Source: a virus
IMG/VR virus record: IMGVR_UViG_3300025669_000078
Location: 1-41,981 of that record
Strand: one strand, 5' to 3'
DNA length: 41,981 nt
Shown here: in pieces, positions 3,356 to 40,633 of the stretch
How the letters are laid out: each line of letters opens with the position of its first letter
How positions within the stretch are numbered: the stretch's first letter is position 1
Position numbers and translations under genes: made by a program
The notes under the pieces: model-generated
What the model was told of the DNA's origin: nothing
Databases searched by the model: none
Seen by the model: only the letters and a program-made list of their open reading frames with translations

Positions 3356-3388
3356 CCCTTTAAGCTAACTGACGTTTTTTTGGATTAA

Positions 3389-3406
3389 TTTAAATCGCGA
3401 TTTAAA
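3389..3406. promoter_or_regulatory. perfect 18-bp palindrome between promoter and first head gene
   Basis: TTTAAATCGCGATTTAAA reads the same on both strands. It lies about 27 bp after the predicted transcription start and 2 bp before the GTG start of the gene at 3409. It may be an operator for a dimeric repressor or an RNA hairpin controlling translation. It differs from the GTGTA operator motif, so a second factor would be needed. Confidence 0.5.
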
Positions 3407-3408
3407 AT

Positions 3409-3588
3409 GTGACAAGCATCGATTTTCCGGACGTTCTGATTTTTTCGGGGCTCACTTCAATAGGGGTGGGCCTTTTTTTATTGTACGGGCTGCCGTGGGC
3501 ATTGCTGGCGGTCGGATCGTTGCTATTTAGCGTGGGGATTTTACAGGCGTGGGTATCTTCTCGAAAGGTTTCAGAAGCCAAGTCATAG
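3409..3588 (+). CDS. small two-segment membrane protein ahead of portal
   Basis: A 59-codon frame with a GTG start immediately after the palindrome. Two hydrophobic stretches, about residues 9-26 (VLIFSGLTSIGVGLFLLY) and 30-47 (WALLAVGSLLFSVGILQA), are joined by a GLP turn, and the tail is basic. This hydrophobic hairpin layout is common in small proteins before siphophage portal genes. No Shine-Dalgarno is visible at 3409; GTG 3466 is a later alternative. The 3' 40 bases overlap the portal gene in another frame. Function unknown. Confidence 0.65.
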   Translation: MTSIDFPDVLIFSGLTSIGVGLFLLYGLPWALLAVGSLLFSVGILQAWVSSRKVSEAKS

Positions 3589-5549
3589 GCGGTGGCAGTT
3601 TAACCGTCACTGACGATTTTTGGTACGGACTCGGTGGCAGTGTCTCCGAATCCGGCAAATCTGTAAATCAACAAACGGCCATGAGACTTGCGGCGTGGGC
3701 TTCCTGTATCATGTTGGTTGCATCGGATAAAGCAAAATTACCGCTGAAACTTAAACGGCCAAAAAAAGGCGGTGGGTCCGAAGATGCAACCGATGAGGAT
3801 CTTTATTATCTCCTAAAAGATCAGCCAAATCCGGACATGAACTCGTTTACATGGCGGGAAACCAACCAGGGCCAAATAATGACAGATGGTAACTATTTTG
3901 CATTTATTGAGCGATCCGGCATGGGTATAAAAGCGTTGTGGCCAATTAAGCCGGAACTGGTAACGGTTAAGCGCGGCAAAGGCTGGACCGAAAAAGATAG
4001 ATACGGAAACCCCCGGAAACGCGGACCGCTTGTGTATAAAATCCAAGGTGAAATAAAAGATCGACCGGCAAAAGATATTCTGCATGTTCCCGGGTTTGGT
4101 TTCGACGGATTGTCCGGTGAATCGGTCATTAAAAACTTTGCGCGGGATTCTATCGGCATTGGCCTGAGTCAAAAAGAATTTGAGGCCATATATTACAAGC
4201 AAGGATTTTCACCGGCTGGATTTTTTACGTTTCCGGGGTCACTGGGAAACAATAAAAAGACATTTACCAAAGCTGTCGATAAGCGGTTCATGGGCACGGG
4301 TTCAACCGGCTCACGGCGCCCGATGGTTATGGAAGATGACGGTAAATTTGTTCCATTCGATATTAAATTTGCCGATGCACAACTGCTCGAAATGATGCAG
4401 ATGACGCGTGAAGATATTTGCGGAATTAATCGCGTGCCTCCTGCAAAGATCGGGATTTTTACCAAAGGCGCGAACTACAACAACACTGAGCAACAGAATA
4501 AAGCCTATGTTGATTCTTGCCTATCGGGCTGGACCGTGCGCGATGAACAATCGTTCAATATGCAATTATTGACTGAAGAAAAACGCCGGGCCGGTTGGTT
4601 TTGGAAATACAATCTTGATGCGCTTCTCCGCCCGGATGCCAAGTCACGTTCCGAAATCGATCAACGATATTGGCAGATGGGCAAACCGTTAAATATAATG
4701 CTTGACCGTGATGATGAAAATCCGGTCAAGGGTGGTGATGTTGGTATGGTGCCATTAAACTTTGTGCCGGTGGGTGAGCCACGCGAACCTCCTCCCGTTC
4801 CCGTACAGGCAAGTATTCGGGCGCTTGAGTTTAGAGCAACGGCCTTAAAGTCTGTACGCGGGCGGGATCGGGTATCAAAACGGTTTTATCCGCTTTTCCG
4901 TGACGCTGCACAAAAGATAATCAATCGGGAATCCATTGCCGTTAAAAAAGAAGTGGATAAACAGTCCAAAGATCGGGCTAAACGGAACATGGAAACTTGG
5001 CTGGACAATTTTTATCGGGATATGCCGACATATATTAACGACACCATCGGCCCGACCATGCGGAGCTTTGCGGAATCGATCCAAGAAGCTGCAGCTGCTG
5101 AAATCGGCGCTGATGTTGGGTTGACCCCGGAACTTGAGGACGAAATCAGGGAATATATTGACGGATTCACGGCTCAGTATGTTGGATCCTCGCGCGGGCA
5201 GCTTGTGGCGCTTATCGGTGACGAATTAACAGAGCTTGAAACGCGGGTTGATGAATGGCATGAAAAGCGAGCGGACAAGGTCGCGAATCGGCAAACGGTT
5301 TCGATGGCCAGTATGGTTGCGGCCTCAACTTTCTTTTCGGGCGGCTTCCGTTCCGTGTGGGCTATTCGGGGACCGGAAACGTGCCCATACTGTCAATCCC
5401 TTGCCGGTCGTGCGGTTAAACGGGGCGAAGCGTTTGCCGAAGCCGGAACCGAAATAGAAGTCGAGGGCCAAGATCCGATGCCGATTTATGGGCTAACGAA
5501 ATATCCGCAACTGCATGGCGGTTGCGACTGTTTTATAACTGCGGGGTGA
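3549..5549 (+). CDS. portal protein fused to a Mu gpF-like minor head domain
   Basis: A 666-residue protein with a GTG start and GGGGA 10 bases upstream. Residues 1 to about 410 are an HK97-type portal: an AWASCIMLVASD helix near the N-terminus, LKDQPNPDMNSFTWRE, and the RVPPAKIGI segment near 297. Portals form the ring through which DNA enters the head. Residues about 420-666 resemble the Mu gpF/SPP1 gp7 minor head proteins, with a long helical stretch and a C-terminal CPYC (612-615), H656, C659 and C661 set. The two parts are separate genes in many phages. No stop or frameshift is seen between them. Confidence 0.92.
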   Translation: MGIFSKGFRSQVIGGGSLTVTDDFWYGLGGSVSESGKSVNQQTAMRLAAWASCIMLVASDKAKLPLKLKRPKKGGGSEDATDEDLYYLLKDQPNPDMNSFTWRETNQGQIMTDGNYFAFIERSGMGIKALWPIKPELVTVKRGKGWTEKDRYGNPRKRGPLVYKIQGEIKDRPAKDILHVPGFGFDGLSGESVIKNFARDSIGIGLSQKEFEAIYYKQGFSPAGFFTFPGSLGNNKKTFTKAVDKRFMGTGSTGSRRPMVMEDDGKFVPFDIKFADAQLLEMMQMTREDICGINRVPPAKIGIFTKGANYNNTEQQNKAYVDSCLSGWTVRDEQSFNMQLLTEEKRRAGWFWKYNLDALLRPDAKSRSEIDQRYWQMGKPLNIMLDRDDENPVKGGDVGMVPLNFVPVGEPREPPPVPVQASIRALEFRATALKSVRGRDRVSKRFYPLFRDAAQKIINRESIAVKKEVDKQSKDRAKRNMETWLDNFYRDMPTYINDTIGPTMRSFAESIQEAAAAEIGADVGLTPELEDEIREYIDGFTAQYVGSSRGQLVALIGDELTELETRVDEWHEKRADKVANRQTVSMASMVAASTFFSGGFRSVWAIRGPETCPYCQSLAGRAVKRGEAFAEAGTEIEVEGQDPMPIYGLTKYPQLHGGCDCFITAG

Positions 5550-21896: not shown

Positions 21897-21964
21897 GCGC
21901 GGGATAGGGGATTCAAGACCGAAAAGCGTGTTTGCTCCGGCACGCCTTCCCGCGCTATCTTTTA
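21897..21964 (+). terminator. nested hairpin after the tail tube gene
   Basis: GCGCGGGA (21897-21904) pairs with TCCCGCGC (21948-21955), and inside it GCGTG (21926-21930) pairs with CACGC (21941-21945). The outer stem is followed by TATCTTTTAA. It begins eight bases after the tail tube stop and precedes the chaperone gene, so it would limit downstream expression. It may be a partial terminator or an mRNA stabiliser. Confidence 0.65.
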
Positions 21965-21998
21965 ACGGAGCCATAACGATAAATAGGAGTACGGAGCA

Positions 21999-39853: not shown

Positions 39854-40125
39854 GCCCGGTTGATTGGGGGAAGCGGGTAAGCCCGATTGATGAATATAAA
39901 GCGTTGTGGGCGTCTATGCTGATTCAGATGATCGAGGATTACCGATCTTTTTCAAAAAGGGTAATCGGTTTTTCATCTTATCCGACAGCGAGGGATTGGA
40001 GAGTTGCAAGGGCATGGCTTAAATCGGATCGTAAACATGCACCGGGATCGTTCCTTGCGGTTTGTGATACGCTGGATCTTGATCCGGTGGCGGTGCGGGA
40101 ATCGCTTTTTGGGAATACCGCTTGA
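39811..40125 (+). CDS. hypothetical early protein
   Basis: A 104-residue protein from ATG 39811, with AAAGGAGG upstream; the longer frame start at 39763 lies inside the previous gene. It contains KALWASMLIQMIEDYRSF and RVARAWLKSDRKHAPGSF, then DLDPVAVRESLFG. A helical phage protein of a type often seen near early regulators, with a weak HTH-like end. Its stop overlaps a -35 box. Confidence 0.65.
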   Translation: MPDYTNHPNTKDDLSPVDWGKRVSPIDEYKALWASMLIQMIEDYRSFSKRVIGFSSYPTARDWRVARAWLKSDRKHAPGSFLAVCDTLDLDPVAVRESLFGNTA

Positions 40126-40150
40126 CAAATTTAAAAAAGTATATTATAGG
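40122..40150 (+). promoter_or_regulatory. promoter before the replication-organiser-like gene
   Basis: TTGACA (40122-40127), a 17-bp AT-rich spacer and TATAGG (40145-40150). Transcription would start near 40157. The next ATG is at 40160, so the message may begin with almost no leader and runs straight into the long hairpin. Confidence 0.65.
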
Positions 40151-40159
40151 TTTAATATC

Positions 40160-40282
40160 ATGGAATATAGCGGATTCCAATCAACCTCAAATACACAAGT
40201 CTTCCCACAACAACAAGCGCACCCTTGCGCTTGTGGGCCGCTATCCCACGTTGTGGGAAGACTTGTGCTTTTGAGGCTGTGA
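40160..40282 (+). CDS. possible 40-residue leader peptide spanning the hairpin
   Basis: ATG at 40160, three bases after the predicted transcription start, opens a 40-residue frame that ends TGA at 40280-40282, two bases before the next start. It contains EYSGFQSTSNTQVFPQQQ, then CACGPLSHVVGRLVLLRL. The frame crosses the whole hairpin, so ribosomes reading it would melt the structure. No ribosome site is seen; it may be leaderless or chance. Confidence 0.35.
   Translation: MEYSGFQSTSNTQVFPQQQAHPCACGPLSHVVGRLVLLRL
40185..40276 (+). promoter_or_regulatory. long inverted repeat (27-bp arms) that masks a ribosome binding site
   Basis: Arms 40185-40211 and 40250-40276 are complementary at 25 of 27 positions (two mismatches, at 40192/40269 and 40193/40268). 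Between them 40213-40221 pairs with 40226-40234 (9 bp, CCCT loop), and GGG at 40235-40237 can pair with CCC at 40245-40247, giving a three-arm fold. TTGTGGG occurs twice, so the arms can re-pair. The ribosome site GAGG of the next gene (40273-40276) is inside the 3' arm. Confidence 0.75.
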
Positions 40283-40283
40283 G

Positions 40284-40577
40284 ATGGACTACATTATGAT
40301 TTCCAACTGGAAAAAATGGCAAACCTACCGATCCGATAGAGGACAGCCGCCTTGGATAAAAATTCATCGATGCCTTATGCGTAATGTTGAATGGGTATCC
40401 TTGACAGATTCAGAAAGAGGGCAACTTGTCGCCATGTGGTTGCTCGCTGCGGACCGCGATGGCGTCATACCGGCGTCACCTGATATACTTCAAAAAATAT
40501 GCTTTATGACGGATAGTCCAGATATCAACAAATTCACAGATTTAGGGTTTATTGACGCCAACGTGACGCCAAGCTGA
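40284..40577 (+). CDS. phage replication-organiser-like protein (short)
   Basis: A 97-residue protein. It begins DYIMISNWKKWQTYRSDRGQ and continues PPWIKIHRCLMRN and GQLVAMWLLAADRDG then FTDLGFI, the typical N-terminal layout of phage replication/DnaD-like organiser proteins (NWxxFQxYK..PPWIK...). It stops at TGA followed by C, a leaky context, and the same frame then codes 15 residues (RQHDQPEAEEEAEEE) until TAA. The start lies behind a hairpin. It may assist initiation of replication. Confidence 0.7.
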   Translation: MDYIMISNWKKWQTYRSDRGQPPWIKIHRCLMRNVEWVSLTDSERGQLVAMWLLAADRDGVIPASPDILQKICFMTDSPDINKFTDLGFIDANVTPS

Positions 40578-40633
40578 CGCCAACATGACCAACCAGAAGC
40601 AGAGGAAGAAGCAGAAGAAGAATAAAGAAGCAA

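Follow-up and report, generated by a model that had tools for sequence, protein, structure and literature searches.

The region upstream of the replication-type gene in the window, which is the whole 41,981-base stretch of the virus record analysed here, is probably an antisense RNA module of the C4/CI type that heads a replication operon and gates the translation of a leader ORF, as far as can be judged from sequence. The DNA itself displays the anatomy of such an element, its recurrence, the complementarity between a loop and a leader target in diverse phages, and covariation in a sister family; expression of the RNA, its action in trans, the direction of repression and the link to immunity are what we infer. 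The most suitable reading is that of a variant of the antisense control exerted by C4 and CI, joined here to a leader-ORF switch ahead of a replication gene.

Table 1. Features of the antisense element and its surroundings in the window.
Feature	Positions	Strand	Description
Probable promoter	40122-40150	+	TTGACA 40122-40127, 17-nt spacer, weak -10 TATAGG 40145-40150; read from sequence
Leader ORF	40160-40282	+	40 codons and TGA; spans the whole hairpin; stop 1 nt before the next start codon
Target hairpin at leader start	40161-40179	+	TGGAAT - ATAGCGG (loop 40167-40173) - ATTCCA, 6 bp; from fold
Long stem P1	40185-40276	+	40185-40191 with 40270-40276 (7 bp); 40194-40211 with 40250-40267 (18 bp)
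Inner hairpin P2	40213-40234	+	9 bp, loop CCCT; from folds
Inner hairpin P3	40235-40247	+	GGG-CCGCTAT-CCC; antisense loop 40238-40244; from folds
GAGG ribosome site of the replication gene	40273-40276	+	pairs with CCTC 40185-40188; 7 nt 5' of ATG 40284
Replication-type gene	40284-40577	+	97-aa N-terminal domain of an O-like / replisome-organiser initiator

The initial annotation had described a near-perfect 27-bp inverted repeat that carries the GAGG ribosome site in its 3' arm, and both statements are confirmed. P1 consists of 25 pairs and 2 mismatches and lies within an inverted repeat (40182-40211 and 40250-40279) with arms of 30 nt and 90% complementarity, and the GAGG hardly ever escapes pairing in the free RNA, with an unpaired probability of at most 0.004, which rises to 0.19-0.96 if the 5' arm is held open. 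The segment 40180-40283 has a free energy of -59.5 kcal/mol (z about -11.7), which was matched by none of 200 shuffles, and the core 40194-40267 one of -46.8 kcal/mol (z -10.8). The 18-bp core stem holds two inner hairpins, P2 and P3, which had gone unnoticed before, as had the fact that the loop of P3 is a perfect 7-nt complement of the ATAGCGG at the leader start. No DNA match to the window stretch was present in the named-phage collection. Within the window record the hairpin occurs as a single copy, by which a mobile repeat is ruled out.

Relatives of the gene were collected, first thirteen in IMG/VR and then a wider set. The long stem with two inner hairpins is present in the window, in L004, L005, L006, L011, L012 and L015 and in the L038 family. 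In five of these (L004, L005, L006, L011, L012) the element stands 5' of the same gene with unrelated letters, and L007, L013 and L021 have related shapes; no such element adjoins the gene in the relatives L008, L014, L016, L018, L020, L033-L036 and L136. In further phages the same design, again with unrelated letters, stands before replication or other early genes. L005 contains two elements (1220-1313 and 2863-2953), one of them a second copy before another gene, and L015 also has two (3371-3448 and 3690-3767), the second one located 5' of an antirepressor Ant gene (phrog_63, E=7e-55). Genome contigs yielded one further relative, from a Phycisphaerae MAG, and no clear element was seen on that contig. 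A broad multiloop scan was discarded as too permissive, with many matches in coding and GC-rich DNA.

A U tract follows the stem in L004, L005b, L006, L012, L015 and the L038 family, which would suit an ordinary intrinsic terminator, or an RNA-processing stem, without any regulation. This is very improbable, however, as the element sits between the promoter and the gene that it serves, the U tract 3' of the window stem is weak (CTTTTG), and a terminator requires no pair of inner hairpins and no match of a loop to the leader start.

The leader frame of 40 codons and its probable promoter are located where the initial annotation had placed them, with a predicted transcription start at about 40157. 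The TTGACA site of the window was omitted by a consensus promoter scan because of its weak -10, but an exact TTGACA within 110 nt 5' of the stem is found in six of the eight leader-ORF elements versus a background of 0.06. On the - strand a 10/12 promoter-like site (40322-40293) points leftward through the hairpin; such sites are no commoner than in shuffles. Since an ATG ORF spanning such a hairpin is expected by chance in about 22% of cases, the leader ORF alone is weak evidence, and it is its recurrence that counts: an ATG ORF crosses the stem in 8 of 12 window-type elements, where 2.7 would be expected, and the stops of these eight range from 22 nt 5' of the next gene to 1 nt inside it. 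L006 has an additional longer frame across the stem, L145 has a GTG leader with a stop overlapping the next ATG, and the leader of L148, with a GTG or ATG start, extends beyond the start of the next gene. In the L038 family a consistent leader ORF was not found (13 of 30, in differing frames), and the leader ORF as a general feature is therefore unsupported there.

Translational attenuation, by which the initial annotation had explained this arrangement, is partly supported. Opening of the stem by the leader ribosome is plausible because leader ORFs through the hairpin recur, in L145 and L148 as well, and end at or near the next start. Hiding of the ribosome binding site, the core of the model, is clear for the window, and in L004, L005b, L006, L012 and the L038 family a terminator-like U tract 3' of the stem takes its place. 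A plain attenuation in cis, with a stem that covers the GAGG until the leader ribosome unwinds it, and without antisense action, is rather unlikely: the pairing of the GAGG in free RNA agrees with it, as does the leader stop 1 nt before the gene together with the leaders of other phages, but hiding of the site is clear in the window only, and the match between loop and target as well as its covariation would be left unexplained.

That match is better than expected by chance. In the window the 7-nt complementarity has p=0.005 against shuffled leaders and p=0.001 if a hairpin-loop target is required. For ten elements with unrelated letters the longest matches sum to 59, versus 45 on average and at most 53 in shuffles (0/1000), and with hairpin-loop targets only to 52, versus a mean of 33.6 and a maximum of 44 (0/1000), although these ten-element tests are partly post hoc, since some of the elements had suggested the idea. 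Five further elements were tested once the idea was formed. L007 has a match of 9 nt (p=0.001), L145 one of 8 nt (p=0.008), and L148 and L013 have 6 nt each (p=0.07 and p=0.10, the latter 0.02 as hairpin loop); in L144 the stem is present and the loop-target match absent. The combined p of the five is 2e-4. In the leader-ORF elements the target lies at about -7 to +23 of the start codon and thus within reach of the initiating ribosome. Between the stem and the end of the window ATAGCGG does not occur on the + strand. If the whole inner region is tested against the leader by duplex energy, the signal is weak (combined p=0.03) because paired parts are then included.

The loop could also pair with the target on the same molecule. 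In the nascent RNA (40157-40248) the minimum free energy fold pairs the target with the loop and uses the first TTGTGGG copy, which pairs with the 5' arm; the doubled TTGTGGG pointed out in the initial annotation is real. From this one could propose an attenuator acting in cis only, in which target-loop pairing competes with the stem before the 3' arm is made and nothing happens in trans. We regard this as improbable, because the stem outcompetes the target-loop pairing once the 3' arm is present and the plan matches that of P1 C4, which acts in trans (PMC5320573). A change of loop and target together across many phages would be expected from an immunity group as well, so that the cis-only proposal keeps some probability. 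Action in trans is favoured further by the position of the target at the base of the long stem and of the loop at its tip.

Covariation was analysed in the family of L038 (phage MW202462), in which the element is located directly 5' of the initiator gene. That gene (1027-1728) is unannotated in the public record. It has 438 relatives in IMG/VR, and the element is present in 40 of the 80 that were fetched. The set comprised 29 distinct sequences and 43 pairs, taken from the stem, the inner hairpins, the target hairpin and two loop-target helices. Standard pairs fill 99.4% of the cells, versus 35-45% in slid controls; ten pairs show two-sided change, and the covariation score was reached by none of 500 shuffles. 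Three of the pairs with two-sided change belong to the loop-target helix, and variants of the loop are accompanied by matching variants of the site directly beside the stem (TACTGTG/CACAGTA, TACTGAG/CTCAGTA, TATTGCG/CGCAATA and TACTACG/CGTAGTA). The second pairing, TTGGCG with CGCCAA, is invariant and thus uninformative either way; in the terms used for C4, site b' covaries and a' does not vary. The covariation therefore belongs to a sister family with letters unlike those of the window and without a consistent leader ORF. For the window's own type there is none, because the window and L011 share a single loop-target pair. What is conserved and covaries is the antisense loop with its match at the leader start, a feature absent from the initial annotation.

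These data also bear on a role of the repeat at the level of DNA, be it as a cruciform or single-strand origin close to the replication gene or as a mobile palindrome. In its favour, the element adjoins an initiator gene with iteron-like repeats, and an inverted repeat can fold whichever strand is considered. Such a role is nevertheless highly unlikely: the orientation is fixed relative to promoter and gene, G-U pairs occur in the L038 family, the loop-target covariation reaches outside the palindrome, and the hairpin is single in the window record while its letters differ from phage to phage.

Among the closest known counterparts is the C4 RNA of P1 and P7 (RF01695), whose anatomy and processing by RNase P have been described (PMC5320573); c4-a1b1 is listed as well (PMC2864571). 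In the P1 record, C4 is annotated with a1 (TTGACAG) and b1 (GTTAGTG) upstream, and P1 C4 folds into a long stem with two hairpins, as do the elements listed above, with CACTAAC in a loop and CTGTCAA in the junction. L038, L021 and L015 share with it antisense sites in loop and junction and upstream leader targets in the same antiparallel order, the two collinear sites having been assigned by eye in L021 and L015, and one L015 element precedes an antirepressor gene like C4 before icd-ant. Unlike C4 with its two antisense sites, the window shows one, and at the ribosome site of its replication gene no further target pair (a2/b2) was found; a leader ORF through the RNA, a replication gene downstream and, in many elements, a U tract are further differences. 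Rfam detects C4 (68.8 bits) and c4-a1b1 (RF03163, 51 bits) in P1, but the models for C4, c4-a1b1 and isrK (RF01394) gave no match at gathering or permissive thresholds in the window, six relatives, L015, L038, L012, L021 and L041. The elements thus seem to work like C4, as far as their letters tell, but stand outside the Rfam family.

The control of a replication-type gene by such an RNA, which had at first looked new, is not wholly so, as the CI RNA of P4 controls the replication operon of the phage, where pairing with the leader leads to premature termination (PMC4825925). With CI and its seqA/seqC targets the window shares a leader RNA before a replication operon and a complementary leader target, a likeness drawn from the description of P4; unlike in P4, the window stem itself is the block and the target overlaps the start of the leader ORF. 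For premature termination as in P4 the U tracts of several elements are suggestive only. IsrK of Gifsy-1 (PMC4825925) is a short RNA that acts on the read-through mRNA from its own locus. The shared locus is one likeness; others are the target at the start of a small ORF upstream and the coupling of the following gene to that ORF. IsrK activates, however, the order of terminator and ORF differs, and the Rfam model finds nothing here. The leader ORF ending at the replication gene and the stem-hidden ribosome site, found together in the window only, resemble the IncI arrangement, as does the target loop TTGGCG of L038. The repY-repZ system of ColIb-P9 and IncI plasmids has a leader peptide ORF that ends at the replication gene, a stem covering the ribosome site of that gene, and a loop that pairs with another part of the leader. 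There, repZ is activated when the loop pairs, and the antisense Inc RNA is transcribed from the opposite strand, whereas the antisense loop here is on the same strand, inside the stem.

For the antisense module that we favour, the following course can be assumed. Transcription would begin just 5' of the leader ORF, and the stem with its two inner hairpins would act either while still part of the leader or, after cleavage or termination, as a separate short RNA. The loop would pair with the leader-start hairpin in trans on other copies of the transcript, perhaps also in cis on the nascent RNA, and thereby stop translation of the leader. Without a leader ribosome the stem would form and the replication gene would be off, with the ribosome binding site hidden in the window and an intrinsic terminator formed in the relatives with a U tract; if the leader is translated, the ribosome would open the stem and pass on to the replication gene. 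In a lysogen, replication would be kept off, and an incoming phage with the same loop would also be silenced.

Antisense RNA is known as the basis of only a few phage immunity systems, among them those of P1 (C4) and P4 (CI). P22 sar is another. The design described here is found repeatedly in diverse environmental phages and is similar to the immunity RNAs of P1 and P4; this points to a widespread class of RNAs for the self-control of phages that is not yet catalogued. We put forward more tentatively that in this class a fast-changing loop and its leader-start target set the specificity of superinfection and gate the initiation of replication, the leader ORF passing through the RNA so that the leader ribosome instead of a protein repressor is the switch. 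As the loop is readable from sequence, cross-immunity groups might become predictable, and a leader ribosome turning replication on makes a testable case.

The product of the replication gene matches a replication protein family (phrog_26426) with E=0.001, and its full-length relatives clearly match O-like, DnaD-like and replisome-organiser families. Where the initiator domain ends (40553-40589), the window contains three 11-bp repeats TGACGCCAA(C/G)N; repeats of this type after the N-terminal domain number six in L007 and are also present in L004, L008 and L034. They are probably iterons, with the origin located within the initiator gene or immediately 3' of it, as in lambda O. In the window (40574-40620), L004 and L007 the initiator frame ends at an in-frame TGA within the repeats (TPS*/TPT*), giving 97-101 aa, and in the window RQHDQPEAEEEAEEE follows in frame after the TGA, as in the longer relatives. 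The initiator gene of L012 at 5001 carries an insert at residues ~105-180 that resembles homing-endonuclease families (phrog_18411, phrog_681). Elsewhere in the window, an int-alpA RNA (RF02996, 39.8 bits) is located on the + strand at 21897-21968.
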